Assembly (NCBI GenBank): GCA_034190875.2
Contig: CM067351.1
Location: 2,489,510-2,553,509 of the forward strand
From: Urechis unicinctus
Lineage: Eukaryota > Annelida > Polychaeta > Xenopneusta > Urechidae
Direction of reading: 5' to 3'
DNA: 64,000 bases
Below the pieces are notes generated by a model. The model was not told where the DNA came from. It worked only from the letters and a program-made list of their open reading frames with translations, and did not search any database. A program made the translations under genes and the position numbers. Below, one piece after another: positions 33,788-64,000 of the stretch. Within the stretch, counting starts at the first letter, position 1. Each line of letters starts with the position of its first letter.

Positions 33788-33821
<34 letters not shown>

Positions 33822-33866: not shown

Positions 33867-33905
<39 letters not shown>

Positions 33906-34069
33906 TATATATATATATATATAGATATATATATCTCTATATATATATAGATAGATAGATATATCTATATATATATATATCTCTCTCTCTATCTCTCTAT
34001 CTATCTCTCTATATCTCTATATAGATATATATCTCTCTATATATATATATATATCTATATATATATCTA

Positions 34070-34119
<50 letters not shown>
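33788..34119. repeat. Complex (TA)n with GA-containing interruptions
   Basis: About 330 bases of TA repeats interrupted by AGAGAG and ATAGATAG type units and by their complements, so the two halves can pair as a long AT-rich cruciform. It borders the TA-flanked repeat element that follows. Confidence 0.95.
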
Positions 34120-34123
<4 letters not shown>

Positions 34124-34924
34124 CGAACGCGACCTTTAGTGGACAAACCGCCAACCTTTCGAAGACTTGGGTCCACGAAAGGATATACCAGCATGTCCAC
34201 ATAAAGTCAACGCACATTTTCGTCCAAAAAACAATTGAAAATATTTTGGTTTGACCATTCAAATGTGTTAGTCTAGTCTTAGTAACGTACAAAGATAATC
34301 TTTCACGCGTGATTTCTTTGGATTTTGAATGTAATAGCGAAATAAAATTTTAACAACTAACCATTCGTTGACATAACCCGCACACCTCAATATCTTCCAT
34401 ACAACCATATATACTTCGATCCAAATTGCCGAAATAATGTTTAATCATGTGTGTTGGATATGTTTATTTGAAAAATTTAAATATTTGATTTATTTTTAAA
34501 TTTCATTATGGAAAAACTCTATTTTTCTCCTTATTCATTAATCTATAACATTTAATTAGATCACGAAATGCTACCAAAGGTTCATCATGATCACATCTGC
34601 AACAACTATTATGTTTATAATCCATGATGACAGAAAATGATTTAAATATTTGGGTATTCCGGAAATATTCAAGAATAAATATGGGCACGAAAGGTTGGAT
34701 TTATACGTATAAATTAATGTATTGACCTTTCGTGGACGACCTTTCGAGGACCAAAAGTATATACAACAAATACAAAGTGACAAAAAGTTTTTTATTCGCA
34801 TTAAACTATTTTACTGTATCAATTTAAAGATGCCGAATAAATAATTGATAATTAATGATAGCAAAAATGTACTACAAAAATTTGTCCACGAATGGTTGGA
34901 GTCCACGAATGGTTGCAATCGTCA

Positions 34925-34925
<1 letters not shown>
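34120..34925 (-). mobile_element. ~800 bp TA-microsatellite-flanked repeat, copy a (reverse orientation)
   Basis: This is the reverse complement of the element at 63,079-63,871. Shared blocks include GCGACCTTTAGTGGACAAAC, GTTTGACCATTC, ACGTACAAAGATAATCTTT and the distal GTCCACGAATGGTTGGAGTC. Both ends abut long (TA)n tracts. The ends carry repeats of the motif AACCWTTCGTGGAC in opposite orientations, so it resembles a non-autonomous DNA element with subterminal repeats. No coding capacity. Confidence 0.75.

Positions 34926-34985
<60 letters not shown>
34926..34985. repeat. (TA)30 microsatellite
   Basis: Pure TA tract directly at the end of the TA-flanked repeat element. Confidence 0.95.
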
Positions 34986-34987
<2 letters not shown>

Positions 34988-34999
34988 AAAAAGCCGTAC

Positions 35000-41551: not shown

Positions 41552-44500
41552 TTGCCATAAATTAGCGGTAGCTTCTGTATTTTCACCCTGTTGGTTAAAA
41601 TCAACCAAATGTTTCTTTACCAATGTGGCTCCATCGCCAATACCCTGGATGCAGAAATTTCTATTTAATCGTGCCACTGCAGTACGTTTGAATCCGAGAA
41701 ATCGACGGAATTGTAGGGCAGCGATAGGCAATCTTTACGAACATGCGAATATGTTACGTGATGAATTTATCTTGAGGCCGAAGGTGAGGATGTAGAAAGG
41801 CATCATAATTACGGTGACCTAGTCAACATCCTGGCGTGATATTTACTTCGTCAGTTTTATCAAGGTTATTTATGGTCTATGCGCTTTGGTCGTTAAACAT
41901 TCAGCTGCTCTATTTGGTTATCGTTGATTGATTTGAAGCTGCTCTTACACTGCCAAAATGAATTAATCAAGACTGGCCAGCATAGTAAGTTGTTGAATGC
42001 ATTTGTCCGCCCATTAGGTATAGTCTCATGTGAGCCGCTGTCTCCCAGTGCATCAATTCTATGCGGCGCGTTGTGTTCAACTATAAACAGTTGTTGTGGG
42101 TATAAAGATATAGTTCCAGGCCAGAGGATTTTACATAACTGATTGCGATCAAATAATGTCAGTCCTTACAAGCATTAATCAGTCAGTATTATTTTCGACT
42201 ATGTTAACATTCTGGCTACGGCAGTGGCTGTTATTTATGATAATATAATGAAATCGCACACAGTTCGTATAACTGTAAGAAACCTTCGCCATACCCCACG
42301 CACACACATGAAAACACGTTGTGTATATTTAGAATATCGTTGCAAATCCAGGCACATCATAACTCACTGGACCCCGAAATGTGGATAAGTCCTACACGTC
42401 TATTTCAATCGGTATAAAGCTTACATTTCAAACGCTTGCTTTCGCGTACACTGACTGTTGTTCATTCAACTAAACGAAACACGTTATATAAACGTTATAC
42501 CTATTCCTGTAATATTTGCCTACGTCATTGTGCGCCCCTTCTGCTATAGCTACGAGGACAATTTGATACACATCAATAGAAGAGAGTGGATGAATTGATG
42601 TCCTCAGTACTGCCATCTTGTCATTTTACAGAGAATGGCCTTGATTTCGCTAACTAACCGTCTGACAAATGGCTATACTCTGCCGATAATCCACACTGTT
42701 TGATAAGTAAAGCGACGAAGATCAAACCGAATAACTGTTTCCTTTGCCTTGAATATGCTTCTTTTTGTAGTCGCGTGGGCAAAGGTTCACTTTGACGATA
42801 TGTATTTTAGTGAGGAAATATGTGCTATTCTCAGGGACATATTTCTTTGTAATGTGGACCATGAATGCGATGCGGCACAAAACAAGATTGTTAGTGGCTC
42901 ATTATGGTGGCGTTACTTTGAAGTGAATGAATGATTAATGTAGAGCTTCGATTGTTTTTATTTTGACAAGAAGTTAGATTAGCATCGACCCCCGGTGATA
43001 TCCCCTTAAATGGCATTCACATCAACACATGCTCAACGCCACCGAAGCATCATCACTTCATACACTCAAGATGTATTGCCCATCAATGACAGTTCATGAC
43101 GTCTTATGACCAAACACCGCGATTGTGTGTTGCGTGGCGCGCTTACACTTATTGTCGTACAGAGGGTTTGGTGATAAGTCTATCACTTGGAATGACGTGG
43201 GCTTTTTTGTTAGCAAAGAAGTTGGGATGGTATCGGAACCGTATATAGAGTGGGTGTTTGCAATGGAGGGGGTAAAGTGAGTGAGTGGGGGTGTGCGTGT
43301 GGTTATGTTTGCACATCTAACTGATTAAGTGGGCGATTGAATGAGTGAGCGTCTGAGTGGTTGGTTATAAGACCGGCTGCATTAAGTGTGTCCCTATAAT
43401 CATGGAATATGTTCTTACGACCGACAGCAGTGGATTCGCTCTTCCTTTCCTTTTGCTTTGTAGGACATATTTAACCTTTCTGACATATCAACACATCTTA
43501 GCTCAGTAAATATAACAAGTTGTGCACTGGATATAATTTTTCCTATGCTACAGCAAACGAAATGTTTTAGCAATATTTGACATTCACTGGTTATATTTAC
43601 AGAAATTGAGTGGCAGACAAATCTGTCCTAAATGATCTATTTACGCAGCAGTGTAACGATATGCCGGGCGCCATATTGTTGAGTTGTGCTAATGCACCTC
43701 AAACAAGCATGTTATTTCGGCATGCAATATAGTTTGCGACAGAGTGTCATTTCAACAGCTGTCCATAACGCATGCTTTCTGCATCCGTCCCTGCAGATTC
43801 GGAACTGCTAACGGAAATGAACGCCAACTGTGCAAAATATAAACCTTGCCCGTCATCTGGTATGATTGTCGTGGCAGTCAGGTTGCTGACCACTTGATAT
43901 CACAATGACCGTCATAATTATGACCGCACTTATATGTCTTATATGATTTACAATAATTCGGATTGCTATGCCGCTACATTATCGTGATATTTATCTTAAC
44001 CTTGCACCCTTTGTTGCCCGTTATTCGGCAATCACTGATTATGCTTGGATTCACCAAGCACGTAAACTTCACTACGATATATATGATAGAGTCGATAGTG
44101 TGGGGCAACCATCGAGCCATTCATGTATTAGTACTTTAAAGCAAATGTTGAGTGTCAAGCATTTGATGATTTGTTAATACAATTATTCTGTTACAAGGTC
44201 AAGGTGTACATGAACACACAATAATTACAATACAACTTACGTGAAATTAAAGCTTCATTAAAAGGGCATACTTGTTCGCCGGCAGACAAATTTAGTGCCC
44301 ATAAACACCAGTATCATATGCATCTCGTAACTGCGAAAATTGTTATGTCACATGAACGTTGATAGTTTTTATGGGGGCACAGTCGCCTCAATGAATTAGA
44401 AGACTCCATTTATTTGGCATTAGCTGCTAGATCATGGTGTTATTCTTATACTTGGATATTACCTATGTATGTGATGTTCATATTTTACTCCGCTTTGCTA

Positions 44501-45585
44501 AATGACATATTTATCAGTGCCACTAGAATTTCGTAAAATAAAAACATATCAGTTCGAGTGTTTAGGCGTCGTTAAACTCATCGCCATCTTTTCCAAAAAC
44601 TATGGCGTCTATCAAACATCTATAGGCATTTTAGTTGACAACGATGCCACTAACATCATTTCGCGATTTAGGGATTTAATTCCATTCTCCCATAACTAAG
44701 GAAAAACTATACAAAGAGAAAATGCAGCATGGACATTCAGCTTCATTGTCAATAGTCTCACGGATACGCGGTGTATGTTAACCTAATATGATTATTGTAC
44801 ATAAACATTGTACATGGCGAGCCTTCTTCAGTCTGGGCGAAGTAGGAATGCTGCAGTTGTGGATAGCTTAATGTTTACAGTCACGCTACTATGACCCCTT
44901 ATTGGCTGCACTTTTGCAAACAACACTGATGATGGGGATGTTCATCCTGACCTTATTCTACATGACCATTGAGGTTTGATATCACTGAAAACTATCTGTA
45001 AGCCCCATCAGAACTACACGGGGACATAGTGTCACCAGGGACACCGAATGCGAGTACTGGAACTTGTTGCCGAGATGTACACGGACAATAACATGGAATT
45101 TGAAGAAGTGTTGTGAAAAACATTATATTGCTTGAATCCATAGTCTATTTTGCTCTAAGTATGACCATATTCGAAAGATAGATGTTTAAGTACCCTGCTG
45201 CTCGAATGGTACCTGTGCTTTAGCCGATGCTGGGTTATTACTTAACAGCTATGTTGGAATGGGCTTGTCCTGAACAAATCTGTGTAAATAGACAACGAAA
45301 GTTATGTGATAGCAAACCTTCTTAAAGGGGTTATGCCTGCATGTCCTCTGGTATGTTTGCTAGTATTGTACGAACAGGCAACCTTGTTTCCTTTGCATAT
45401 CGACTGTGGCAAACACATTGACGTTTGCTCGAAAGGCAGGAGTAGTGATATTAAAGGAGAAATGCCTACGCGGTTCTGCTTTGCCAAAGAAATGTTGCCT
45501 GCAATGATACAAGTGTGAACCATAAATAGGAAAGAAACCACACAAGGAGTTGGAATAGACATCAAGTCTGCAATAATTTCACAAG

Positions 45586-45648
45586 GTGGTAATTATCAAT
45601 GAAGGGACTGTTCCAGATGACTGGAAATGTGCCTATATTACATCAGTG
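45586..45648 (+). pseudogene. Scrap of a non-LTR retrotransposon reverse transcriptase (D1)
   Basis: The frame gives VIINEGTVPDDWKCAYITS. This matches the conserved stretch upstream of RT motif 1 in CR1/Jockey-like elements, where G-x-V-P-x-x-W-K-x-A-x-I-T-P is typical. Only about 20 codons are recognisable; the expected following block (basic residues and YRPIS) is absent and no flanking RT is visible. A very old fragment. Confidence 0.5.
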
Positions 45649-46220
45649 TTACTGCCGGCAATCCAGCTTAACAGCCGTCGTAGGCATAATGTTAGAAACA
45701 TTGGACGGTGGCAAACCCAGAACAGCATAACATTTCTGATTATCCAAGAAAATTTGAGTAAAGGTTTTTGAGGCGATCGTTAAAAAGAAAACAAAATTAT
45801 CAAAATACGAAACAATACAGTGATTCCAAATGAATGGACCTCTAAAGCAAATACAAATCTTTTTTCCGTCCTACAAAGTTGTAAATAATACATTTGATAA
45901 ATATCTTGTGTTTTTTGAAAAAAAAGTTTCAAAAGCCAATACTTCAAGTTAATGCTTAAACATCAATATTCCAATTATAAAACAGTAACATTACATATAT
46001 GTAAAATGCTATCTCGAATAAAGAGAGGGCGGTATGAGTTGCGTAATGTAACATAAATACTTGATGTGTTCTGACCATGTCAATTTGTTGTCTTTTACCA
46101 CAAATATGATTAAATATTATTCACTCTTTTGTACAAATTAGTCTTGAATGTGAAAACCATACAATTTGTTATTCAAAATTGTTTTGAATGATTATCTGCA
46201 TATGTAAAATCGTTCATATT

Positions 46221-46546
<326 letters not shown>

Positions 46547-46553
46547 AATATTT

Positions 46554-46612
46554 CAACCCATTCTCGAGCTTACACCCTCAACCATTGGATAGTGGTCACT
46601 TCGCCTTACATT
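46554..46612 (+). repeat. Left TIR of the 11.4 kb transposon
   Basis: Begins CAACCCATTCTCGAGCTTAC directly after the AATATTT duplication. It pairs with 57,932-57,990. A subterminal motif AGTGTAAGGA recurs at 46,617-46,635 and near 46,690. Confidence 0.9.
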
Positions 46613-46759
46613 AGCACCCATTGGGTAGTGTAAGGAGGCCTCGCTGTGCCTATGCCCGACAGCCTTTCATAAACTACCGCACGTAGGAGAGTGTAAGGAG
46701 AACGGTTTGGCATGGGGCGTGAAATAAGGAAGGATCCCTTTTTACCGAGCTGCATCAGC

Positions 46760-46786
46760 CCAAGATGGCGGACATACGGTCAGGTG
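46760..46786 (+). promoter_or_regulatory. Start region of the KDZ-like gene with a YY1-like site over the ATG
   Basis: CCAAGATGGCGGAC closely matches the YY1 consensus AAGATGGCGGC, which in animals often overlaps the start codon of a gene. The ATG at 46,767 opens a 19 nt coding exon that ends at a GTGAGG donor. Function is inferred from the motif and its position about 210 bases from the element's left end. Confidence 0.5.
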
Positions 46787-49700
46787 AGGATGCTTCGATG
46801 TTTTAATTGTTATTAAATCGTCAATTATGTACACTAACCGAAGATGGACTCAGGTGTAAGCACCATGAAACTTTTCAAAGGGCACTTGTAGTAATATTTG
46901 TTCCATTCTTTAATGTTATAGTCACTTGTTTCATATTTACACGCTCTCTATCTTAGGTTACGCAATATATTTCGATCAGTGGAAGTGGTTGTCTTGTTTA
47001 TATTACCGTCGTGTGCGGCTAGGGAAGGGGGGCTTTGCTTCCCGCAAACGTTTATGTCATGCCTATATTATCGACAATCTGATATGATGATATGGAAATG
47101 TATCAGCAACTAGGCAAAGAATCTCAACCTCTGACAGCTCTGCTCTATTTACTACTTTCGATCTCACATCCGAGCTTTAGAGGCGAAGCGCAGCCAGTCA
47201 AATTACGGAGCTTCTGAAGTCCAAACGACCGATGAACTCACTAAAAACTTACCAAAGCCCTCCAAGCAAAACAATTTGTGACAAAATGCAAGATTATATC
47301 ACAAAATTACACGAGGACTGTTTATATTACTACAGTTTTGTCTACTTGTTCTGTTTGAGCACTAAAATACGTAGCCGCGCACGACGGTAGTATAAAAATA
47401 TGTAAATAAGAGTCGTCCACGGCTGTAAAATACGGCACATCATGAAACTTAGTTAAAAAAAACAACATGGTTGACTCCCATAATGCAACATAACTGCGTT
47501 AATTCTCGTTCATGTTTTCGATTGCACGATAGCCATGTTGGACAACAATTTTAAAATTGTGTTGGATTTCGTTGATTCTGTTGATTAGAAGTATGACTGT
47601 TGTTGGACACTAGGCAAGATTGATGATAAGACATTTGTTGATATGAAAATGTATATTTTTTTAACTGTCCCTTGTCTGTGTTGCGAGAAGGAGCAAATTT
47701 GCTTATAACGCTCACGATTCTGCATACGGACCGTCGCCTCTTAGGTGGCATCAGATCATCAAAACACCCGGGTTGAGTTGCCTTGCCTAATCAGCAACCA
47801 CCTCCTCTTTGTTCGTTGGTAGTTTGGGGGGGTTCCTGTGGCAGTTGTACAGGCTGTTAATTGATAGCATTATCGATAGCTATAGACAGGACAACGAAAT
47901 CGGTGAGGAGACGTAAGTTGAGAGAAAGCTAAATAAACTGAATTTGATGTTTGTTTTAGCACTTTTGAAGGCTAGAATTTCTGCAGATACAAAAATATAT
48001 GTGAAACTTTTGTTTAAATGCAGACCCTGAGAAGGCATTTGATAAAGCCGCTGCTAAATTACTCAAAGCACTTTGCCCAGCTAGGGCAAAATCTTCCCGT
48101 CTTATTGTTAACTCTCCACTGAGGAGTACCTCTGGTATAATACCACATGGAGTGAAGCGCAAGCAAACCTCAGCTTCTTCAGCCAGACTAAATAATTATG
48201 GTACCTTTGTTAATTATGAAATATTCCAGAAAAATTAATTTCACAAAATTTACTGATCTCTAAGAACACATTCATGTGCATCCTTTGCTTGTGTTACAAA
48301 CAGTTGATACACTTACTTCCGTAGAGGCCCTTCTACAGGAAAATCCTATCGGTAAGATCATGATATTTGTGGAGAGTTGCTACTGCATTTTTTATGTTCA
48401 ACAAAAATTAAACATGAATTAGTAGTTATAGTGATAGAGGGTTAATTTATATGGAGTTATCTTCTGACGATAGATGTTAACTGTGTGAAGGAGACGATTT
48501 AGTTTCTGACATTTGGAAAAACTACAGCCAATTATCTGACCCAAGCTCAAGATGACCATGATGATAGTAAGCTGACCGATTGGCAAAAGCGAAAACTGGA
48601 AAGCCAAAATCTTTGGGAGACCCAAAGGCAATCGGTAGTTGACTCATTGCTAGCAAACATGGCACCATCTGCTCAAGAGCCTGAATGTTGCCTGTGTGCA
48701 AATCCATCAAAACTACAGTAATGTTACGCAAGTAATATTGTAATATCTATCTATGAATGACCTTTTGTGCACTAATGTGTAACTCTCATATTCAGGTTTC
48801 TCCAGTGCCAGATGTTTATGTGTGAGGACCATGACAAGCCTAACACCTTTGTGAAGGATGCCATGACAGGGAATGGTTTCATCTTGATTTCTACTACCCA
48901 CTCCCCACGGAGATGCCAGAAGATAATCCCAAGGCAGGATATAATCATTCAAATCAATTCCACTATACTGAATAGATTGATATTTTTGCAACAGGGTACC
49001 TGAGAAACTTTTGCCAAAATACTGCAGTTAGTGTGCTTATTCTGCCTACACTGACAGTGCGGTTTTATATATATGTCTAGTGAAAGAATAATAACTAATA
49101 TTATATTTTGGAGCACAAAAATAACAAATGTTTAAAGGTTATCTATATAAGATGCTATAACAAAACTTACTTTCATTGGATCATTGTAACCACAGTTTTC
49201 ACAAATGAAATTTGGCAAGTGAAGATCATATCTCCCTGCAAATGCACATTGGAAAAAGTCACAATATGTTATTGTAGCATGTTATATGGAAGATTTGAAC
49301 ATAAGCGTAATGCATTGTGCACTTAAATGCAAGAAAAGTTCACATTACAGCTAAGAAGGTATGAGATTTATGGTATATATTTGGTTGATGAACTTATTTA
49401 TAAGTATGTAGTGCCCTTTAAACAGCATCGTTAAAATGAAATTGTATTTATTATAAATATTATGTTCCCAGTCTTATGGTGAAGAACAGCACAAGTTCTG
49501 AAAGTGAGCTTGTTAAACAGGGCCAAGTCCTACAAAAAGATCCATAACAAGTGTCAGGCAAGATGTGGAGCTGACGATGACTAGTATTATGAAACACAAG
49601 ATGCTCATTGAAAGGAAGGCTGGTAATTATTCATATTTCACTTAGACCTCCAAATTTTGTGGCCATAAGGATCAAATACTTTTGTATCTGTGTACTAGAC

Positions 49701-50350
49701 AGCAGCAAAAGCGCACAGGTCATAGGACAAAACTCTCTGCAGAACGCCAACGATGGTCAGAGCTCCTAACAAGTTACAATTGCCTTGCCACAATCTTGCA
49801 TGTCCCTCTTCTCAAGGGTGTTCCTGAGAGTCAAGACTCTTTGCTATGGCTGAGGGTTAGCAGTTCTTGTATCTGATATGCCCTTGCAAAATCGATTTTG
49901 AATTATATTCACATTCGATTCTTAATGAATTGTGACAGAACAGATACCTCTTAAAAAACCCGAGCTCTGGTTGAGCAGTGGCTTCGCCTGCAATGCTTCA
50001 AAGAAGAAAGGAAACAGCTGGCAAATGAAGTCAACATCTACTTGACCAACTACAAATTCACAGCAGAAATCTGGCAGACATGAACCAATTACAGTCAAGT
50101 ATGAATTATTTCTAACATAATTTAATATCCTTATATAAAACTCCAGACTGTTTACCATTAATAATATGTCTGTACATTTCTCCAGGCATGGAGACAGAAT
50201 TCGTGGCAACAGCAGGCAAGCTTGCAATCCTACAGAGGCACCACCATGACATAAACATGCATGAAAAGAATGCTCTTCCTGGCTATTGCTCAAGCAGTTG
50301 GCAATTCTGGGATAAGTACAGATATATATGTCAATGGTATAACAGAACCT
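46767..50350 (+). pseudogene. KDZ (Kyakuja-Dileera-Zisupton)-like transposase relative, catalytic core missing
   Basis: Six exons join in frame: 46,767-46,785 (MADIRS), 48,024-48,200, 48,304-48,351, 48,528-48,717, 48,796-48,995 and 49,521-49,622, all with GT-AG borders, giving about 245 codons. Exons 4-5 hold a cysteine/histidine cluster: WQKRKLESQNLWETQRQ, then ECCLCANP, FLQCQMFMCEDHD and NTFVKDAMTGNGF. This is like the zinc cluster in front of the KDZ transposase domain. Exon 6 (TKRSITSVRQDVEL), an open stretch at about 49,700-49,830 (TGHRTKLSAERQRWSELL) and 49,944-50,085 (FKEERKQLANEVNIYLTNYK) match the C-terminal helical part. The few hundred residues of catalytic core expected between are absent. 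Exon 7 does not join in phase, and exon 8 has a frameshift near 49,970. Probably an internally deleted, decayed copy. Confidence 0.55.
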
Positions 50351-50996
50351 CCCGTGTCATCATATTCTGAATATGGGTCTGATGTATAGAAGTCTTATCT
50401 CCTAAGAAGTTACATTACTTGAAATTTCAAAAACCAATAATACTTTGTCCAATTTAATATATTTGTGAAAGTAACTGTACATGTATGTATTGTTTTAATC
50501 TTTTTATATATACTACATGTAATGAGCACAACATTTAAAAAACTGTACTCATTAACAGGCAACTGTATTACGCCATATCTTTTGGAAATAATTACATGCA
50601 CTTGAATGATTTGATTGCTGGCACTGATTGTTTGTTTCTTCAGAAATTTACCATGCCCTGAGGATAAACCAATTCAGTACAATAATAGTCAATGGTAGAG
50701 CCATGGAACCCAGTGGGACACTTCTGTCAGTTATTATCACAGAGATACACAATTGTACAAGAATTGTTTTTTACGAACCAAAAATATTATCTATTGTTCA
50801 CAATGTAAATGGTATAAACATATTGATGCTTATCCCCAACATTTAAATTCTCCACTGATGGGGTTTTGAATGGTGACTCATGGCTGTATTATGTTTTATG
50901 CATGCATTGTTACTAAGTCCTTATGGTGTTCGTCATGCATTAACTAAGGTGTGTTTATCCTGGTGGAAATTGTTTGTCATCGGTTCTTTAGCTTGG

Positions 50997-51002
50997 AATA
51001 AA
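50997..51002 (+). promoter_or_regulatory. Candidate polyadenylation signal of the KDZ-like gene
   Basis: AATAAA in GCTTGGAATAAATG, downstream of the last recognisable coding stretch (about 50,350). Confidence 0.35.
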
Positions 51003-52729
51003 TGAACATTATGCGCTATGATCTAAGTCTGAACTTTTTAATTAAAGTATTGATTGAAAGTGAGTGAGAAGCAAGTTATTGATGTAATTGTAACTTCTCA
51101 GTTTTTTAAAAGACCTTAAAACATGGATGGTTAATACCTCACAACAACTAACTTAGCTGGAAGTCATGAAATAAAGGGGGAAAAAAGTCTTTTTGATGCC
51201 AAGCAAGATTCCTTGAAAAATCATGTACAGTTTGCATGCGAAGTGAAATTCCTCATAATGTCCTATACCTAGTCTTGCTGTCAGTTATCGTAAGTGTAAA
51301 GAAAATACTACAAGTTAATAGCAATTAAGCAGTTTGTCCCTAGGACAAAATCAACCAAATGGTATCCAGTTTCCCTAAACACCCACGGAATATACTCATT
51401 GGAATTAATATCGAGCCTTATTAATAAAGCAAAGTTTGGGTCTTGTTGCATCGGGACTATCGAATAGACCAGCAAATTTCCGCGTTAACTTAGTTACTAC
51501 ATAAACTATCGCCATATTGACTGCTGCCAAGCAAGTGACATTCTCCCATGCTACTACACTGTAGCCGCAACAACACTGCAGTTACATGGAAAACACCTCT
51601 GTAACACCTTGCCCCTGACCATTAATTACGATCGGATTTCCCCATATTCTGCAGACAAAAACAATCGCGAAGATGTAACTCGCTTGCGCGACATATACAT
51701 GTATTGACGATGTTCTGTTATTAATTCATGTTTCTTAAAGAATAGATCGCGTATTCCATGGGCAAATAAATGTCACCTTGGACAGCGTCCGTGCTGATGA
51801 CTAGTATTGATTATCGTGTCCATGCTGCCAAAATGCAAACCATCAAGAGCGAGGTACCTTACTCACTCATTCAAACAGTGAAACATGCAAGCTAGAGAGT
51901 CGACTATCAAAGTGTACGATATTCACTTATCTCAGTGTCTAACTCTTATCCCGACTCTTATCACATCTAAATGTCCCGAATATCTATTCATGTGTCGCTT
52001 AGGTAATCCGATGAAGCATACAGAACAGTTTTACTCCTTCTGCCTTTCCCCTAAAGGGTACTGAAACACCGTTTAAGTGCGTTCATATTAGTTCAACTAG
52101 ATATCGGTAACATATAACCGAATAAATGCGTTTCAAATATAACTATTTTGGTATCAGATGTTTACACAGTCAAACAATTTGACAATGCATATTGCGAATT
52201 GAAAATTTCATCTTAGTGTACAGAACTAAGATTGGAGGAATCGATAAAATGTAACATTTAGTGATGTTATTGACAGTGCCAAACGCCGAGTGGCGACTTA
52301 AGTCGAAAATTAATCCCTCTAATCTAAGAGCAATCTATTTGACAGTCTTGTAGTGTACAAACAGGACACTAGTCTTATTTTGTACTAGCAGACTATATAT
52401 CTAGCCCAACAGACCAACAGTCGATCGGGTACTCCACTTGGTTCATAAGAGCTATATATATATATATATATATCTAACTGTAGCTGCCCAATCTTAAACC
52501 ATATCTAAAAATGACAATGAATTGCGGTTTGCTGGATTACGGGATTCCTTCCGTGACCAAACTTTTATCCCTACCCCGGGTCCCACCATGACCCTATTAA
52601 CCCTAATCTTCACAACTTTATCTCCACTGCGTCCCAACCAAAAACCCTGTAGAGCCTGACGTTCCCCACCAAATGCCCCAAGACGGATATGCAAGTCCGG
52701 TGTTTAATCATTGATATGAAGTTAAAGAT

Positions 52730-52776
52730 ATAGCCTTGAATGCTTATAGCCTTGAATGCTGATAGCCTTGAATGCA
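52730..52776 (+). repeat. Three-copy 16 bp tandem repeat
   Basis: TATAGCCTTGAATGC recurs three times with T-T and T-G linker variants, just upstream of and partly inside the open frame at 52,740. Confidence 0.85.
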
Positions 52777-53093
52777 AAGATATTGCGCAATATGTGATCC
52801 GCAGCAGAGATCCTCAGATCACCAGTATACCGTCGAGTGCGGTCGTTGTGGAGAAGAAGGTTGACGACACAGACAAAAAAGACAAACCAATAGCCATTCA
52901 GTCGATCGAGTACTACCTTGTCAAGAAGGTGCAAAAGCTCAAGTTGTTTCAAAGAACTAAAACGAAACAAAAACAAGCAAATATTCACTCTGTCTTCATT
53001 CAAATAAGTCATATTTATTCTATAGTGAAACAAATCTATCCGAGTCGATTTGCTAAACCATTTTTGTATGAATTCTTGAAAATTAATTACTAA
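52740..53093 (+). CDS. Unidentified 117-codon open frame inside the 11.4 kb transposon
   Basis: The frame starts within the 16 bp tandem repeat. It contains a charged middle part (VVVEKKVDDTDKKDKPIA) and a basic C-terminal half (KKVQKLKLFQRTKTKQKQ). The reverse strand is also open over most of this span, which weakens the case. No family is recognised, and no splice sites or polyadenylation signal are clearly linked to it. It could be an exon of a transposon gene or chance. Confidence 0.2.
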   Translation: MLIALNADSLECKDIAQYVIRSRDPQITSIPSSAVVVEKKVDDTDKKDKPIAIQSIEYYLVKKVQKLKLFQRTKTKQKQANIHSVFIQISHIYSIVKQIYPSRFAKPFLYEFLKINY

Positions 53094-53843
53094 TGGTTCA
53101 TGTAGTTTTCTTTGTGAAGCTTGATTAAAAGCTGAATTATTCGAGAAATCATTTCAGGTTAGAGCGGGGTTTTTTGCATATCTAATGGACCATCGACATT
53201 TCCCTCATTGTATCGTTACTGTCGTGGTATTGTCCTCAAATTTATCTACTGCCAATAATAAATCAACCCCTTTTTCAAACATACAACTCGGCCTGGCAAT
53301 AGGTCATTGTAGCGGTTTTATGTCTAAAGGCGGCTGCATCCACAGCCATTGCGTTCACCTCGCCGGGATGACCTAGATAAAATTGAGCTGCTGGTAAGTG
53401 CGGGTGTCCTTGTTTTCACTTCCGATATAAACAAAACAATTGATCTGCAGACCAACTTAGTGTCAAACCGCCATCGTCGTTCCAACTCTCGCATTCGTGG
53501 ACAAAGCGAGGCACAAGGAACTTAATTAAGTTGACTGATGAATCGAATTACGCAATTTTATCGTATATTCATGTTTTGCGTACGATCTTAGTGCGATTTT
53601 GAAGATAATGCATTAGAAGTTAGTGCTAGATAGTATCGGTATCATGTTATCGCTCATATTTACGTTTGAACACGTAGTGATGCTGACTTTATCTGTTCCT
53701 GTGTTTCGATGTTTAAATATCAGTTGTATCGGATAGTGTCCTCACATTTTGTGTTTCGATCGATTTGATTACATACATCTGACAGACCTCTAAATATTAT
53801 CGCAATTGATCAGCACAAGTCTAACAAGAGTACGTCTGTTTTA

Positions 53844-53935
53844 GAAGGTGAATGTGGATGGTGTTCATCATCACCTATAGTACAGATACTATCTTTACAA
53901 TTAGTGATGACGAACACCAACAACTCCCACCTTCT
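53844..53935. repeat. Imperfect 31 bp-arm hairpin
   Basis: The left arm starts GAAGGTGAATGTGG and contains GGTGTTCATCATCAC. The right arm contains GTGATGACGAACACC and ends CACCTTC. The arms pair at about 24 of 31 positions with a ~30 base loop. It could be a tiny MITE or a small-RNA type hairpin. Confidence 0.6.
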
Positions 53936-54020
53936 TCAGTGAAATGTTTCAACAGATATGCATCTTTTCTCATCTAATTTCATACATATATCTAAAAGCT
54001 CCCACTGGTGTTGTTGTTTA

Positions 54021-54288
54021 CACCCGGGGGGGCACTTAAGTGTATAGAGGTAGTACATATGTGCCGCGCAACAGGGTATGTTTTTTCGGCCTCTCGACTT
54101 GTACGACAGGTTTTTTGACAGGGTATGTTTTTCATCTTCAATCCGTATGAGGGGTTATACATTCGCATAATACCTTGTACGACAGGGTATGCTTTTGGCC
54201 ATTTTGACCTTGTAAGACTGGTACGGGTTTTCGAGGTCCCGCGGCACACCCCTATCCAGAATAAGGCCAAGTGCCCCCCCCCCCAGGG
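54021..54288. mobile_element. ~268 bp MITE with G-rich inverted ends
   Basis: The left end reads CACCCGGGGGGGCACTT; the right end read inward is CCCTGGGGGGGGGGGCACTT. TTTA lies on both sides, a possible target duplication. The interior contains ACAGGGTATG three times (54,069, 54,119, 54,194) and ends in GGTCCCGCGGCACACCCCTA. No coding capacity. It lies between the two main genes of the host element, so it is nested. Confidence 0.75.
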
Positions 54289-54365
54289 TTTATACTAAGA
54301 TGATGATGAAGTGAAGAAATCCATGATGTGGACAGATGATCTGAACATTTTCATATTTATTGATT

Positions 54366-55710
54366 CTATCCATTTGTGACAAATCTTAACAAACTTAGTG
54401 GGATGTCATCTTCTGACACTTTGTCTTCCCACTTTTCATTTCCAGGAGCTGAAAAAATACAAGAAATTGGATGACTAAACAAACACAATACCTTGTATAT
54501 GTATGCACATAAATTCCTGGTTTATTTGGGATATCCATTCACCTAATCTGAAGATTGCATTTTTTTCACTATAAGGCCTTAAAGGTTAATTCTGTTGAAA
54601 ATGAATCAAAACTTATGTTTTTGAGTTAATTTAATAGTCCAACAACCTGAAGGTTGACATGTGGTTCACCAAAATATGACGTAACCAATAAAAGCATGCA
54701 CTTTCCAACTGAAATTTCGGTTTGTTTGTCATCTGAATCAAATCAAGTTTGTACCAGGTTATTATGATGTCTTTCCATTCTAGTTATATTATCATGAAAG
54801 AGACATCCATGTATGATCACAGAGTCAATAAAAGTATTACACTTACCAACAAGTCTACTGAGTTCTGACTGGTCAGCTGAATAAAATAAAGCATACATGT
54901 AGATGCTATGGACCAATCATATTTTATCTGGGCGTTTTGATGATATAGCCAATTCTTGTATGGATTATTGAAACAATAAATGCATACACCTACCAGTGAT
55001 TCTCTTTTCACTCTCCGCACCTGCATCACGTATATACTTCAGTTACATTTAATCAAATGGTTATTGCAGTTAGAGAATTTATATTTTGAAAAAGCCATAT
55101 ACTTAATATGTGAACTATTTATATACTCTGTTCTTACTGTCATTGACAGCTGTTGATTGAGGTTGGCCAACATAATTCATCTGTTTCTCTGAAAGCCAAT
55201 GAATAGAACCCATAAAAACAAAGCATACATGCTAGTTTTACCTATCATATAGTTGGCGCCTTTTTTAAAAATCAGCAAGAGCGAGTAACCACCTGGCAGA
55301 TGAGCGACATCACAACTGTGTAGGGTATCATACAGGTTATTGAATAATGTCTTGTAAGTGCAATGTGAATGTAAATATATACATTGTATGTTAGCTGTGT
55401 CAGGAGTTAGAAAAAGTTTATGCACGCACTAACTGCATGATAATCATTTTTGTTTTTGCTCCATGTCACTAATCACATGCAAGGTCAATTTGAACTTAAC
55501 TTGCTGTCAAATGTATATAAGCTTACCCTTGTTGTAGTATTCCACATAAAGTATTTTGCTGTAGACATCTTTTATATAACTTCGGTGGGATGCCAGCCCT
55601 GCAGCAACTTCATCACTGCCAGGCCTCATGGTAACGTGTACCCGCTTTCTTGCCCCTGTAGGCCTGGCAAGGAAGAGACAGTCAAACGCAGCCCCCTTCA
55701 GCTGTGCCAT
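54366..55710 (-). CDS. Five-exon leftward gene of unknown family, 158 codons
   Basis: Exons 55,710-55,527, 55,394-55,242, 55,020-54,994, 54,876-54,847 and 54,448-54,366 (TAG) have good GT-AG borders: GTAAGC, GTAAAA, GTAGGT and GTAAGT donors, and pyrimidine-rich acceptors on most. Every junction is phase 1 and the joined length (477 nt) is a multiple of three with no internal stop. AATAAA follows at 54,361-54,356. The start is the ATG directly after the first acceptor; upstream exons may exist (open stretch near 55,860-56,010, but a stop and phase mismatch prevent joining it). The protein begins MAQLKGAAFDCLFLARPTGA, then has HVTMRPGSDEVAAGL, a hydrophobic GGYSLLLIFKKGANYMI, two tiny exons (AESEKRIT; DQSELSRLV) and an acidic tail ending LLRFVTNG. 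No family is recognised. Intact, unlike its KDZ-like neighbour. Confidence 0.55.
54442..54476 (+). other. Opposite-strand alternative: splice acceptor plus short terminal exon
   Basis: On the plus strand a very good acceptor (CTTTTCATTTCCAG) leads into ELKKYKKLDD and a stop. It overlaps the leftward gene's last acceptor. I favour the minus-strand reading because of the phase-consistent exon chain, but this could be the last exon of a rightward gene, making the two transcripts overlap tail to tail. Confidence 0.2.
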
Positions 55711-56508
55711 CTAAACACAAAAAAGGCAGCCAAAGTTTCTTAACCAATCAGTGCATAAGAACCTAATTGAATATAAAAAAAGGTGTATTTGTGTAAGATG
55801 CTACCCCACGTTCACTGAATAACAACCTCTACCTTAGTTTTCGATTAAATTCATGATTCTGTAAACATTGCTGTGGTGCATATTGGCCCCCTTTTTGATT
55901 CTCTTTTCATTTGCTGATGCCTGCCTTCTTTGCAAATACTCCCTGGGGCTTTACCCACTCGCATGAATACCTTTTGGAGTGATTCAGTGATGGAAAAAAG
56001 TGTCTGGAATATTTTAGTTTAACCGAAAACCAAAATTACCCAAAATTTTCCATTAAGCAACATTGATTTACAATCAAATAAAAATGCAACTGAGCTATGA
56101 AAATCTAGAAACAAGTAACGAGTGATAACAAAATCATAGTAAGTGTAGTTGGAATTTATCACATGATTTACCAGAAACATTCATTCACTTAGGCAAGGCA
56201 AATTGATAAATTATCCATCGGTACATCACTTTTTATGTCTTCGGAAAACGGCCTGATATACTAATTACACTCGCTTTGAGGACAGGGGTTACTTTTGGCC
56301 CGGCCGCAGTCTCTGGCATAGAAGATAGCTGCGACCGAGCCAATGCTAAACCCTGTGGCTGCTACCATCGCCTGTCATACGAAAATCATTTGACCTTTGA
56401 CACTAACCGAAATGACCAAGCATATATTGTCACGCATAAATGTATTTTAAACCCACCATCATAGGACGAGGACATGCTGTCAGTCACGATAAACTTTAGC
56501 AGAATATA

Positions 56509-56513
<5 letters not shown>

Positions 56514-56597
<84 letters not shown>
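56514..56597. repeat. (TA)~40 microsatellite
   Basis: Uninterrupted TA tract inside the 11.4 kb element. Confidence 0.97.
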
Positions 56598-56600
<3 letters not shown>

Positions 56601-56689
56601 TTAAATGGAGATTTAATTTTGAGTATGCTATGTTTGAGGTCAGATAGAGGCTCAATCGTTCCGCAGGGACCATTTATTTTTTCTCAAAT

Positions 56690-56914
56690 GCGCCGCCGGT
56701 CGGAGCGTTGCATGCTGGAAATGTGAACGAGTGCAGTGCAGCGGGGGTTGAGGTGGATGGGGAGAAAGGTGAGGCTGGGCTTTGGGGTGGGGGATTGGTG
56801 CTGATATCTGCTGCGTGGGTGGTTGGAGCATGGGCAGGGCGAAAAGGTGTTCAGTAAAGGGCGGGGTTTAGATAGAAAGGATATAAATAAAATAATTATC
56901 GATATTGGAGTATT

Positions 56915-56990
<76 letters not shown>

Positions 56991-56991
56991 A

Positions 56992-57086
<95 letters not shown>

Positions 57087-57740
57087 GATGGTGGTGGGGT
57101 GGGGTGGGGGGGGGTGGGGGTTGGTTAGCGGAAACGTACTGTTGGAGAGACGGGGAAGAAAGCGGTTGCGACGATGAGATAAGTGGGGTCTGAAGGCAGG
57201 AATTAAATTATAAAGTTCATACAATGATATGTTGACGTGATGAGCTGGAGTGGGTGGGGTGGAGGGGGGAGGGGCGTAGGTGGGGAGAGACGAAGCAATG
57301 AACGTGTAGTTTGTAGCCGGTGGGGGAGCCTGGGTTAGGGGTGGGGCTGTTAGTCCGGGTTTTTGAACGTAATCTAAAGTTAAGAGAGGCATGGGTGGTA
57401 CATGATGGGTGGGGAAGGGCGTGACGTGGCAGGGCGGGGCGGGTAGGGATGTGAAAGGGGTAGTGGAGGAGGGGGGGGGGAAGGGTTGTATGAAGTAGGA
57501 TAGGAACGTTGGGAAGAAGGTTAATCAAAACGGAAATGCATGGAATCGGGAGGGTGATAGGTTGTTGAGAAAATAAAATGTCACACTGAAAGAAGCGAAT
57601 GGGGTGGAATTTAAGGAGGACGGGGTGGGGTGGGGGAAGGGTTTTGCATTGGAAGGGTATGCAGTTGTGCGAGAATGAGGAGCGAGAGAGGCAATCGATC
57701 AAACAGATTGGATTAAGAGGGTGATGGGGAGACATGGGAG
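56690..57740. repeat. Purine-rich, G-rich block with (GA)n core
   Basis: The plus strand is strongly purine-biased for about 1 kb. (GA)n occupies 56,917-57,087 with a few interruptions, then 57,088-57,125 has runs of four to eight G separated by T, and G-rich runs continue to about 57,740. The bias produces long but low-complexity ORFs on both strands, including the longest in the window (about 170 codons, Pro/His/Leu- or Arg/Glu-rich). I do not consider these genes. G-quadruplex or triplex formation is possible. Confidence 0.85.
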
Positions 57741-57908
57741 GAAAAAGTTTGATTTTTATCTAAAATTGTTCATAATTTGTTTTATTTTCTTCAAATTATC
57801 CAAAAATTTCAGTTTTTAACAAATATTACATCTTTTTTTATGCTGCGGGCTACTAACATTCTATTGGCGAGCAGCGCCGTCCGCATATACAGCCGTTAGT
57901 GTGGGATT

Positions 57909-57915
57909 CTTTATA
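57909..57915 (-). promoter_or_regulatory. TATA-like box at the right end of the 11.4 kb transposon
   Basis: TATAAAG on the minus strand, just inside the right TIR, pointing into the element. It could drive the leftward gene, although about 2.2 kb separate it from the first exon I can place. Confidence 0.25.
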
Positions 57916-57931
57916 CTATCCAAGCTATGAT

Positions 57932-57990
57932 ATTGTAAGGGGCATTGACCACTATCCTATGGTGGAGAGTGTAAGCTTGAGAATGGGTTG
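57932..57990 (-). repeat. Right TIR of the 11.4 kb transposon
   Basis: Read inward it starts CAACCCATTCTCAAGCTTAC; mate of 46,554-46,612. AATATTT follows at 57,991-57,997. Confidence 0.9.
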
Positions 57991-57997
57991 AATATTT

Positions 57998-58524: not shown

Positions 58525-61500
58525 TTGCCATAAATTAGCGATGGCTGCTGTATTTTCACCCTGTTGGTTAAAATCCACCAAATGTTTCTTTACCAATGTG
58601 GCTCCATCGCCAATACCCAGGATGCAGAAATTTCTATTTAATCGTGCCACTGCAGTACGTTTGAATCCGAGAAATCGACTGAGGTATGAATTGTCGGGCA
58701 GCGATAGGCAATCTTTACGAACATGGCTCATTTGAGGCGAATATGTTACGTGATGAATTTATCTTGAGGCCGAAGGTGAGGATGTAGAAAGGCATCATAA
58801 TTACGGTGACCTAGTCAACATCCTGGCGTGATATTTACTTCGTCAGTTTTATCAAGGTTATTTATGGTCTATGCGCTTTGGTCGTTAAACATTCAGCTGC
58901 TCTATTTGGTTATCGTTGATTGATTTGAAGCTGCTCTAACACTGCCAAAATGAATTAACCAAGACTGGCCAGCATAGTAAGTTGTTGAATGCTTTTGTCC
59001 GCCAATTAGGTATAGTCTCATGTGAGCCGCTGTCTCCCAGTGCATCCATTTTATGCGGCGCGTTGTGTTCAACTATAAACAGTTGTTGTGGGTATAAAGA
59101 TATAGTTCCAGGCCAGAGGATTTTACATAACTGATTGCGATCAAATAATGTCAGTCCTTACAAGCATTAATCAGTCAGTATTATTTTCGACTATGTTAAC
59201 ATTCTGGCTACGGCAGTGGCTGTTATTTATGATAATATAATGAAATCGCACACAGTTCGTATAACTGTAAGAAACCTTCGCCATACCCCACGCACACACA
59301 TGAAAACACGTTGTGTATATTTCGAATATCGTTGCAAATCCAGGCACATCATAACTCACTGGACCCCGAAATGTGGATAAGTCCTACACGTCTATTTCAA
59401 TCGGTATAAAGCTTACATTTCAAACGCTTGCTTTCGCGTACACTGACTGTTGTTCATTCAGTTAAACGAAACACGTTTTATAAACGTTATACCTACTCCT
59501 GTAATATATGCCTACGTCTTTGTGCGCCCCTTCTGCTATAGCTACGAGGACAATTTGATACACATCAATAGAAGAGAGAGGATGAATTGATGTCCTCAGT
59601 ACTGCCATCTTGTCATTTTACAGAGACTGGCCTTGATTTCGCTAACTAACCGTTTGACAAATGGCTATACTCTGCCGATAATCCACACTGTTGGATAAGT
59701 AAAGCGACGAAGATCAAACCGAATAACTGTTTCCTTTGCATTGAATATGCTTTTTTTTGTAGTCGCGTGGGCAAAGGTTAACTTTGACGATATGTATTTT
59801 AGTGAGGAAATATGTGCTATTCTCAGGGAAATATTTCTTTGTAATGTGGACCATGAATGCGATGCGGCACAAAACAAGATTGTTAGTAGCTCATTATGGT
59901 GGCGTTACTTTGAAGTGAATGAATGATTAATGTAGAGCCTTCGATTGTTTTTATTTTGACAAGAAGTTAGATTAGCATCGACCCCCGGTGATTTCCCCTT
60001 AAATGGCATTCACATCAACACATGCTCAACGCCACCGAAGCATCATCATTTCATACACTCTAGATGTATTGCCCATCAATGACAGTTCATGACGTCTTAT
60101 GACCAAACACCGCGATTGTTTGTTGCGTGGCGCGCTTACACTTACTGTCGTACAGAGGGTTTGGTGATAAGTCTATCACTTGGAATGACGTGGGCTTTTT
60201 TGTTAGCAAAGAAGTTGGGATGGTATCGGAACCGTATATAGAGTGGGTGTTTGCAATGGAGGGGGTAAAGTGAGTGAGTGGGGGTGCGCGTGTGGTTATG
60301 TTTGCACATCTAACTGATTAAGTGGGCGATTGAATGAGTGAGCGTCTGAGTGGTTGGTTATAAGACCGGCTGCATTAAGTGTGTCCCTATAATCATGGAA
60401 TATGTTCTTACGACCGACAGCAGTGGATTCGCTCTTCCTTTCCTTTTGCTTTGTAGGACATATTTAACCTTCTGACATATCAACACATCTTAGCTCAGTA
60501 AATATAACAAGTTGTGCACTGGATATAATTTTTCCTATGCTACAGCAAACGAAATGTTTTAGCAATATTTGACATTCACTGGTTATATTTACAGAAATTG
60601 AGTGGCAGACAAATCTGAGGATTAAATTATCCTAATGTCCTAAATGCTCTATTTACGCAGCAGTGTAACGATATGCCGGGCGCCATATTGTTGAGTTGGG
60701 TTAATCCACCTAAAACAATTATGATCCTTCGGCATGCAATATAGTTTGCGAAAGAGTGTCATTTCAACAGCTGTCCATAACGCATGCTTTCTGCATCCGT
60801 CCCTGCAGATTCGGAACTGCTAACGGAAATGAACGCCAACTGTGCAAAATATAAACCTTGCCCGTCATCTGGTATGATTGTCGTGGCAGTCAGGTCGCTG
60901 ACCACTTGATATCACAATGACCGTCATAATTATGACCGCACTTATATGTCTTATATGATTTACAATAATTCGGATTGCTATGCCGCTACATTATCGTGAT
61001 ATTTATCTTAACCTTGCACCCTTTGTTGCCCGTTATTCGGCAATCACTGATTATGCTTGGATTCACCAAGCACGTTAACTTCGCTACGATATATATGATA
61101 GAGTCGATAGTGTGGGGCAACCATCGAGCCATTCATGTATTAGTACTTTAAAGCAAATGTTGAGTGTCAAGCATTTGATTTTGTTAATACAATTATTCTG
61201 TTACAAGGTCAAGGTGTACATGAACACACAATAATTACAATACAACTTACGTGAAATTAAAGCTTCATTAAAAGGGCATACTTGTTCGCCGGCAGACAAA
61301 TTTAGTGCCCATAAACACCAGTATCATATGCATCTCGTAACTGCGAAAATTGTTATGTCACATGGACGTTGATAGTTTTTATGGGGGCACACTCGCCTCC
61401 ATGAATTAGAAGACTCCATTTATTTGGCATTAGCTGCTAGATCATGGTGTTATTCTTATACTTGGATATTACCTATGTATGTGATGTTCATATTTTACTC

Positions 61501-63841
61501 CGCTTTGCTAAATGACATATTTATCAGTGCCACTAGAATTTCGTAAAATAAAAACATATCAGTTCGAGTGTTAGGCGTCGTTAAACTCATCGCCATCTTT
61601 TCCAAAAAATATTGCGTCTATCAAACATCTATAGGCATTTTAGTTGACAACGATGCCACTAGCATCATTTCGCGATTAATGTTTACAGTCACCGCAATTA
61701 ATGTTTACAGTCACCCTACTATGACCCCTTATTGGCTGCACTTTTGCAAACAACACTGATGATGGGGATGTTCATCCTGACCTTATTCTACATGACCATT
61801 GAGGTTTGATATCACTGAAAACTATCTGTAAGCCCCATCAGAACTACACGGGGGCATAGTGTCACCAGGGACACCGAATGCGAGTACTGGAACTTGTTGC
61901 GAGATGTACACGGACAATAACATGGAATTTGAAGAAGTGTTGTGAAAAACATTATATTGCTTGAATCCATAGTCTTTTTTGCTCTAAGTATGACCATATT
62001 CGAAAGATAGATGTTTAAGTACCCTGCTGCTCGAATGGTACCTGTGCTTTAGTCGATGCTGGGTTATTACTTAACAGCTATGTTGGAATGGGCTTGTCCT
62101 GAACAAATCTGTGTAAATAGACAACGAAAGTTATGTGATAGCAAACCTTCTTAAAGGGGTTATGCCTGCGTGTCCTCTGGTATGTTTGCTAGTATTGTAC
62201 GAACAGGCAACCTTGTTTCCTTTGCATATCGACTGTGGCAAATACAATGACGTTTGCTCGAAAGGCAGGAGTAGTGATATTAAAGGAGAAATGCCTACGC
62301 GGTTCTGCTTTGCCAAAATAAATGTTGCCTGCAATGATACAAGTGTGAACAATAAATAGGAAAGAAACCACACAAGGAGTTGGAATAGACATCAAGTCTG
62401 CAATAATTTCACAAGGTGGTAATTATCAATGAAGGGACTGTTCCAGATGACTGGAAATGTGCCTATATTACATCAATGTTACTGCCGGCAATCCAGCTTA
62501 ACATCCGTCGTAGGCATAATGTTAGAAACATTGGACGGTGGCAAACCCAGAACAGCATAACATTTCTGATTATCCAAGAAAATTTGAGTAAAGGTTTTTG
62601 AGGCGATCGTTAAAAAGAAAAAAAAAATTATCAAAATACGAAACAATACAGTGATTCCAAATGAATGGACCTCTAAAGCAAATACTAATCTTTTTTCCGT
62701 CCTACAAAGTTGTAAATAATACATTTGATAAATATCTTGTGTTTTTTGAAAAAAAAAGTTTCAAAAGCCAATACTACAAGTTAATGCTTAAACATCAATA
62801 TTCCAATTATAAAACAGTAACATTACATATATGTAAAATGTTATCTTGAATAAAGAGAGGGCGGTATGAGTTGCGTAATGTAACATAAATACTTGATGTG
62901 TTCTGACCATGTCAATTTGTTGTCTTTTACCACAAATATGACTAAATATTATTCACTCTTTTGTACAAATTAGTCTTGAATGTGAAAACCAAACCATTTG
63001 TTATTCAAAATTGTTTTGAATGATTATCTGCATATGTAAAATCGTTCATATTCACACACACACACACATATATATATACACAACCATTCGTAGACTCCAA
63101 CCCTTGGACAAACCTGTTATGTGCATTTTTTACTATCATTATTTTGTTATTTTTGATTCGGCATATCTTAAATAATATAATGAAAAACTTTAATGCAAAA
63201 GATAAACAAATTCAACTTTATAATCCTGGTATATACTTTTTGTCCTCTAAAGGTCGTCCACGAATGGTCAAGATACTAATTTCTATCCATGAATCAAACC
63301 TTTCGTGCCAATATTTATTTGCGTATAATTTCGAAATACAGAAATTTTGATATCATTTTCCGTCATTATGGTTAAAAATTAAGATACTTGTTGTAGATAT
63401 GATTATGAGCCATTGGCAGCGTTTTACGAACTTATTTTATGTTGTAGATAGACAAATAATGAGAAAATACAGTTTTTCGGTATCAAAATGTTTAAAAAAA
63501 ATCTGATACATAACACTTCAAATAGAAACATTGTACGCTCATGTTTAAACATAATTTTGACCATTTGGGCCGAAGCATATATATGGTTGTTATAGAGATA
63601 TCGAGGTTATCAGGTATTGTCAACGAATGGTTAGTTTTTCAAATTTAATTTCGCTATAATATTCAAAATTCAATGAAATCATTCATAAAAGATTATCTTT
63701 GTACGTTATTATGACTAGACTATCTTATTAGAATGGTCAAACCAAATAATTTGTTAACATTTTGAATGAATAAGTTCATTGAATTTATGTGGACATAGTA
63801 ATATATATACTTTCTTTGACGAAAGTCTGCAAAAGGTTGGC
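58525..63841 (+). repeat. D2: second copy of the tandem duplication, with empty transposon site
   Basis: Aligned to D1 throughout. Differences include loss of about 200 bases equivalent to D1 44,669-44,870, a small duplication TTAATGTTTACAGTCACC at that junction (61,677-61,725), a 20 base palindromic insertion at 60,617, and a much shorter TA tract at 63,069. Like D1, it contains no recognised gene other than the retrotransposon scrap. Its start (58,525-58,740) has the same unidentified two-strand-open segment. Confidence 0.93.
62416..62478 (+). pseudogene. Scrap of a non-LTR retrotransposon reverse transcriptase (D2)
   Basis: Duplicate of 45,586-45,648, with the same VPDDWKCAYITS stretch. 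It owes its presence to the tandem duplication rather than to an independent insertion. Confidence 0.5.
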
Positions 63842-63871
63842 GGTTTGTCCACTTAAGGTCGCGTTTTTGCT
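63079..63871 (+). mobile_element. ~800 bp TA-flanked repeat, copy c (most complete)
   Basis: Bounded on the left by (CA)n(TA)n and on the right by a long (TA)n. It contains every block seen in copies a and b, including the segment missing from copy b (63,163-63,260). The ends carry ACCATTCGTAGACTCCAACC on the left and, read inward from the right, CGACCTTAAGTGGAC, which resemble each other as diverged inverted repeats. Non-coding. Confidence 0.8.
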
Positions 63872-63872
63872 A

Positions 63873-63945
<73 letters not shown>

Positions 63946-64000
63946 GAAGAAATATATATATATATATATACATAGATATATATATATATATTTATATACA
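63872..64000. repeat. (TA)n microsatellite to the window end
   Basis: TA repeats with a few interruptions (ATGTA, AGAAGA, CATAGA); open at the window edge. Confidence 0.95.

Follow-up and report, generated by a model that had tools for sequence, protein, structure and literature searches.

Five exons within a KDZ-type DNA transposon of Urechis unicinctus are probably the 3' remainder of a second transposon gene

In this study we analysed a 64,000-nucleotide stretch of the Urechis unicinctus genome (assembly GCA_034190875.2, contig CM067351.1, positions 2,489,510 to 2,553,509 of the forward strand), hereafter called the window, and followed up a chain of five exons located on its minus strand between positions 55710 and 54366. 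We propose that these exons represent what remains at the 3' end of the second gene, here referred to as ORF2, in a KDZ DNA transposon with two genes, and we assign a probability of roughly 0.7 to this reading. The original prediction had described the chain as an intact gene of unknown family. What appeared to be a convincing five-exon gene most likely represents the 3' part that has survived of a broken gene, and the case might serve as a corrective for similar predictions.

The exon-intron structure was read from the window sequence and from the alignment of the copies. Exon 1 (184 nt) spans positions 55710-55527 and is followed on the same strand by exon 2 (51 nt, 55188-55138), exon 3 (27 nt, 55020-54994), exon 4 (30 nt, 54876-54847) and exon 5 (83 nt, 54448-54366), which ends in TAG. 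As had been predicted, all four introns are in phase 1, exons 3 and 4 are micro-exons of 27 and 30 nt, and AATCAATAAATA is found directly 3' of the TAG codon; in addition, all four introns are bounded by GT and AG. The frame is open from ATG to TAG across the five joined exons. It measures 375 nt and encodes 124 amino acids, and the length of 477 nt and 158 residues given earlier is wrong. A profile search of the product had been suggested as a way to identify it, but Pfam returned no match to the 124-amino acid sequence up to an E-value of 10. A sequence search of the PDB gave E-values of 0.32 at best, which is at chance level.

The combination of these features had been considered hard to obtain by chance. 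We scored such structures with a chain finder for splice sites and open reading frames, in which the splice-site frequencies were taken from general knowledge. When the whole window was searched, the five-exon chain noted earlier received a score of 26.19, and the best five-exon chain of the window (score 26.63) falls at the same locus, using a different first exon and lacking exon 2. Five-exon chains with a score of at least 26.19 were present in 59 out of 200 dinucleotide-shuffled windows and, when only the element was shuffled, in 61 out of 400 copies, and the claim could not be upheld. Shuffling frequently yields chains of this quality, and the exon anatomy alone proves nothing about a gene.

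Evidence that the chain is incomplete comes from the sequence upstream of exon 1. Of the 41 aligned copies that extend to the splice acceptor located directly before the exon-1 ATG, 40 have retained its AG, and relatives of the window copy possess an additional upstream exon that is in phase with exon 1. Because of these two observations, exon 1 is probably an internal exon, with its ATG coding for an internal methionine. In copy L059, which belongs to clade D, the additional exon is located 122 nt upstream of exon 1, to which it would be connected in phase 0, and the same arrangement is seen in L028 (L059 and L028 are 98% identical, L028 and the window copy 83%). The exon reads MFKTPCPSCGYLNHAKKYSCECGYSLRAHSQRRR...NVFRIMNSIENK in L059 and consists of 63 codons, which code for a CPSC-x10-CxC module and a basic stretch, and the joined product would have a length of approximately 190 amino acids. 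The best Pfam match for the joined 190-amino acid product is Zn_ribbon_Com, with an E-value of 0.035 and 14 bits compared to a cut-off of 22.9; the only other match was Cas12f1-like_TNB, also below threshold, and neither a Myb/SANT nor a TET/JBP domain was detected by Pfam. We refer to the module as zinc-ribbon-like on the basis of its cysteine pattern, as membership of a Pfam family is not established at threshold. The four cysteines (CxxC...CxC) are kept in L059, L028, L029, L024, L025, L021, L026 and L038, although the exon contains a stop codon in L038 and L021 and gaps or frame breaks in L021, L025 and L026. The donor site following the zinc exon is GT in clade D and GC in L029, L025, L031 and L034. 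Splice sites and phase suggest that this exon is spliced to exon 1.

In the window, this first exon of ORF2 is dead. The corresponding sequence (55834-56022 on the minus strand, ends approximate) has lost the acceptor, the start codon, the cysteines and the frame. In a genome-wide search with the zinc exon, for which 142 of 142 candidates were scored, the window copy matched residues 22-62 only and contained one TAA codon, and many places already known from the earlier gene searches look similar. The five-exon gene can thus not be called intact, as a coding exon present in its relatives is destroyed in the window copy. The copies that lack the zinc module, namely clades A, B and C and copy L027, form a single clade with a support of 1.0, and the zinc exon appears to have been lost once, in their common ancestor.

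The exons are carried by a transposon, as originally stated. The element is a KDZ-type DNA transposon copy of 11.4 kb (11,437 bp, positions 46554-57990), which is defined by its ends, a target-site duplication and a natural empty site. Its terminal inverted repeats are approximately 83 bp long, and the left repeat (46554-46636, starting with CAACCCATTCTC) aligns to the right repeat on the minus strand (57908-57990) with 73 of 90 columns identical when the target duplication is counted in. The ends of the element are CA..TG. The 7-bp target-site duplication AATATTT is found at positions 46547-46553 and 57991-57997, and the same target is present without the insertion in a related repeat at 63310-63316. 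A second insertion, represented by L019 and L020, is flanked by the duplication TTCAAAG with one extra C on one side, so that two insertions were checked in all. Of 11 further sister-copy ends, nine begin with CAACCC, and those of L025 and L033 align from AACCC. A later insertion of 264 bp is located within the transposon at positions 54024-54287 and is missing from L032 and L034. It has runs of G/C at its ends, and similar pieces are found twice in L028.

We searched the genome, which comprises 1.19 Gb in 926 contigs, for further copies. The gene region is matched at 95-100% by 40 scored places out of 155 candidates, including the window and seven partial ones. The same exon-intron structure is found in further copies of the transposon, a check that the original prediction had named. 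Pieces of the element align at approximately 69-98%, with the lowest values in older copies, to the 20 ten-kb loci that were fetched (L019 and L020 being halves of one place), and all 20 loci hold further stretches of the same transposon. These results bear on the suggestion that the transposon has captured the five exons from its host. A gene split into several exons, with micro-exons among them, indeed looks host-like, but transposon sequence flanks the gene at all 20 loci, no better-kept stand-alone copy was found among the protein matches scored (150 of 325, 150 of 254 and 142 of 142 candidates), and KDZ elements are themselves multi-exonic according to PMC9297572. We therefore regard a captured host gene as extremely improbable. 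Two further candidates were rejected. L061, which was considered as a distant homologue (44%), is a decayed copy with frameshifts, and an open frame of 1811 amino acids around one copy turned out to be an assembly gap of N.

We classify the carrier as a KDZ (Kyakuja-Dileera-Zisupton) transposon, because sister copy L038 has sub-threshold matches to CxC3 and KDZ and because the two best KDZ matches of the genome are located beside copies of the gene. The KDZ label that had been given to the neighbouring gene is therefore borne out, albeit through the sister copies and not through the window copy. Sister copy L038 matches CxC3 with an E-value of 3.8e-5 (23.9 bits, below the cut-off of 26.6) and KDZ with a sub-threshold E-value of 0.014 (15.5 bits). 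The two best KDZ matches of the genome, among 150 of 160 candidates scored, have E-values of 2.3e-13 and 2.8e-13, lie above the curated cut-off and are free of stop codons, and they are located 6-9 kb from the clade-D ORF2 copies L028 and L059. The cut-off for the KDZ domain (PF18758) is 26.6, and C16:12063144 and C17:51574056 reach 59 bits. For the window copy, Pfam identified no families in three frames each of the plus strand at 46500-54303 and of the minus strand at 46500-56401, and none were identified in three frames of the plus strand at 28500-37001. The KDZ core of L038 is missing from the window copy between positions 49315 and 49357. An exon-bearing segment of the KDZ gene, GRYDLHLPNFICENCGY (49066-49315, minus strand), is in inverted orientation when compared to the sister copies L037 and L038, and a cysteine-bearing exon near the CxC cluster lies in this inverted segment. 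According to the alignment to the sister copies, the 3' part of the gene remains on the plus strand at positions 49646-50080 (LSAERQRWSELL.., LVEQWLRLQCFKEERKQL..), and these remains may resemble KDZ C-termini. The contrast drawn earlier between a decayed KDZ-like gene and an intact five-exon gene does not hold: the KDZ-type gene is indeed wrecked, but the five-exon gene is decayed too.

The arrangement of the two genes can be followed in the relatives. Collapsing the pieces of a search in which 40 of 90 candidates were scored resulted in 38 KDZ-core loci. Nine of these have an ORF2 match within 15 kb, which is convergent in all nine cases, and the zinc-exon search adds two pairs that are convergent by their coordinates (C17:12442445 beside C17:12447613 and C9:23393329 beside C9:23397325), bringing the count to at least 11 of the 38 loci. 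The remaining 27 are without an ORF2 neighbour among the matches listed, and because some of these lists are capped, part of the missing neighbours reflects the limits of the search. Thus, in the relatives, ORF2 would be transcribed towards the transposase gene, next to the KDZ transposase core, and both genes presumably lie between one pair of ends. The KDZ cores at C16:15732320 and C16:16516887 are 85% identical to that of L038, open and free of stop codons, and have no ORF2 neighbour among the matches listed. L060, which also lies beside a KDZ core, was tried as a further candidate and rejected, as its exon 1 is decayed as well.

Conservation of the frame in other copies had been put forward as a check on the gene, and the outcome is mixed. 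Clade A comprises 24 copies, in which 0.9% of the CDS sites differ from the commonest base, and the same holds true for the introns. The frame, the splice sites and the start are open in 12 of these 24 copies, which are the window's close relatives, and the five-exon frame is also open in the clade-D copy L059. Clade B has at least 14 copies, as judged from near-equal exon-1 scores (150 of 254 candidates scored; assignment by score only), and in each of the three copies fetched exon 3 is disrupted by an insertion of 8 nt. Despite the broken frame of these three copies, clade B seems to have multiplied. Both clade-C copies have a premature stop near the end, and frameshifting indels are present in the five exons of 7 out of 15 copies outside clade A. 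As a rough estimate, around half of the clade-A-like copies would stay open without selection, and the open frame in the window is probably due to the young age of the copy and not to the frame being in use.

It had further been suggested that the five exons could be an essential accessory gene. An accessory gene of the element seems to be the best reading for the longer gene of the relatives and not for the window remnant. Essentiality is unsupported, because at least 14 clade-B-like loci exist and all three of those fetched contain the exon-3 insertion.

The results obtained with the five exons in tests for selection point in different directions. When evolution from clade A to clade D was simulated under neutrality, the five-exon frame was kept in only 12 of 20,000 runs, compared to 199 of 20,000 without the splice condition, 3,269 with substitutions only and 972 with indels only. 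An empirical control gave a milder result: of random open chains in the same alignment, 19 out of 2,425 survive on the gene strand, where the chains overlap, and 0 out of 300 on the other strand. On the other hand, the fixed N:S ratios of the five exons are 13.5:4.5 between clades A and B and 26.5:11.5 between clades A and D, which is near the neutral expectation (MK p-values of 0.80 and 0.47), and none of the MK tests in 12 group comparisons was significant. The fixed-difference test gave p-values of 0.22, 0.32 and 0.13. For exon 1, pN/pS ranged from 0.55 to 1.53 in 14 pairs, with another frame having a lower ratio in 10 of them. No signal for the gene emerged from an N/S scan in which every distinct change was counted a single time, and scans counting every copy were set aside, since large z values were also obtained for stretches that contain stops in other copies. 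In the conservation profile, the surroundings of exon 3 and part of exon 1 fall below average, but intron stretches are equally low. Judged by these tests, the five exons show no detectable amino-acid constraint.

These data allow us to weigh the possibility that the five exons are a complete, working 124-amino acid gene, which is kept under selection by the transposon. This would account for the frame, splice sites and stop kept in half of the close copies and in L059, and it gains from the neutral simulation, in which retention over the path from A to D was unlikely. We nevertheless consider it decidedly improbable in view of the near-neutral fixed N:S ratios, the pN/pS values of exon 1, the in-phase upstream exon of the relatives, the broken frame of every clade-B copy fetched despite at least 14 alike exon-1 matches, and the frameshifting indels outside clade A.

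In comparison, the substitution signal sits in the zinc exon. Its pN/pS in L059 versus 14 copies is 0.16-0.57, compared to 0.61-3.98 for the other frames, where the branch of L059 is common to all pairs, which are not independent of each other. Among the open windows, the zinc exon ranks first with a z of -2.83 when changes common to at least two copies are counted, and fourth when every distinct change is counted; fixed-difference tests on this exon were weak (p-values of 0.10, 0.23 and 0.05). One could therefore argue that the zinc exon alone is the real gene, coding for a protein of approximately 97-101 amino acids by running into the presumed intron, and that the five exons are a chance chain. 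The frame is indeed open for 101 codons in clade D, and both the lower ratio of another exon-1 frame in most pairs and the frequency of comparable chains in shuffled sequence are in line with this explanation. However, the four introns have 16 splice-dinucleotide positions without a single fixed difference between clades A and D, one fixed indel, which is in-frame, was seen in the CDS between these clades compared to approximately four expected from composition, and the phase fits across the junction with the zinc exon. We regard this explanation as unlikely, and favour the five exons as the tail of ORF2. This tail was probably under some constraint earlier. Our reading is that it was coding but loosely constrained in the full gene and that, once the first exon was lost, it was free to drift. 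It may also not be coding at all, because of the exon-1 frame with the lower ratio in 10 of the 14 pairs.

A convergent second gene that codes for a zinc-ribbon-like module and a basic stretch is in line with a role in DNA binding. The most likely function of the ORF2 protein would be that of a small DNA-binding helper of the transposase, comparable to the Myb-like protein of Harbinger elements, with the zinc-ribbon-like module binding zinc and DNA. After the first exon had been destroyed, the window's clade would have spread, and its mobilisation in trans was presumably provided by intact relatives. Regulation in trans by truncated products is known from other DNA transposons. It is conceivable, though we would put it at somewhat below even odds, that animal KDZ elements of this kind are two-gene systems consisting of a KDZ transposase and a convergent zinc-ribbon helper, and that, in the window's clade, a shortened product initiated at the internal methionine could regulate in trans. 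If true, this branch of KDZ elements would become comparable with Harbinger through its convergent zinc-ribbon-like second gene, which would also provide a concrete helper protein. The Harbinger transposase is unrelated to the KDZ transposase. Harbinger is likewise a two-gene DNA transposon with a small second protein, and according to PMC9179366, this Myb-like protein binds the transposon ends, interacts with the transposase and is imported into the nucleus together with it, and it is less constrained than the transposase. It contains a Myb/SANT domain, in contrast to the zinc-ribbon-like module found here, for which a helper role is only inferred.

Among KDZ elements, Kyakuja is described in PMC12730594 (Kojima 2025) as having 7-bp target duplications, 5'-CA..TG-3' ends and a KDZ-type transposase, and the window element shares the duplication length and the ends. 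Two fungal Kyakuja families are reported in the same text to be without terminal inverted repeats, whereas the window element has repeats of approximately 83 bp. Because of these inverted repeats, we describe it as a KDZ element with Kyakuja-like ends and do not file it as Kyakuja. Some Kyakuja members carry a second gene coding for a TET/JBP dioxygenase, according to PMC12730594, whereas Pfam assigns neither TET/JBP nor any other domain above threshold to the second gene of the window element. The Zisupton elements of animals resemble the element described here in having terminal inverted repeats and a KDZ transposase gene with several exons, and the excerpts of PMC9297572 covered do not mention a second gene; its target duplications are 8 bp long according to PMC12730594, compared to 7 bp here. 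A search of the open-access literature for KDZ second genes or molluscan Kyakuja returned nothing useful. Within the open-access literature searched, as far as its text was accessible, a zinc-ribbon-like second gene has no KDZ precedent, the fungal TET/JBP dioxygenase being the one second gene described there.

Lastly, we observed several repeats in the surroundings of the transposon. The KDZ insertion lies within one unit of a repeat, with the sequence at 41552-46246 being repeated at 58525-63078 (97-98%), and inverted repeats of approximately 900 bp (34010-34915 and 63081-63982, 77% alike) flank a 30-kb stretch. A direct duplication, 6841-12575 and 18699-24452, has its parts approximately 11.9 kb apart and is 98.8% identical over 5.7 kb. 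Further duplicated pieces are found at 1070-3116 and 16698-18702 and at 14928-17030 and 26707-28812. Finally, a tandem array with a 33-bp unit is present in approximately 13 copies at 13036-13572, and one more copy of the unit is located near 25138.
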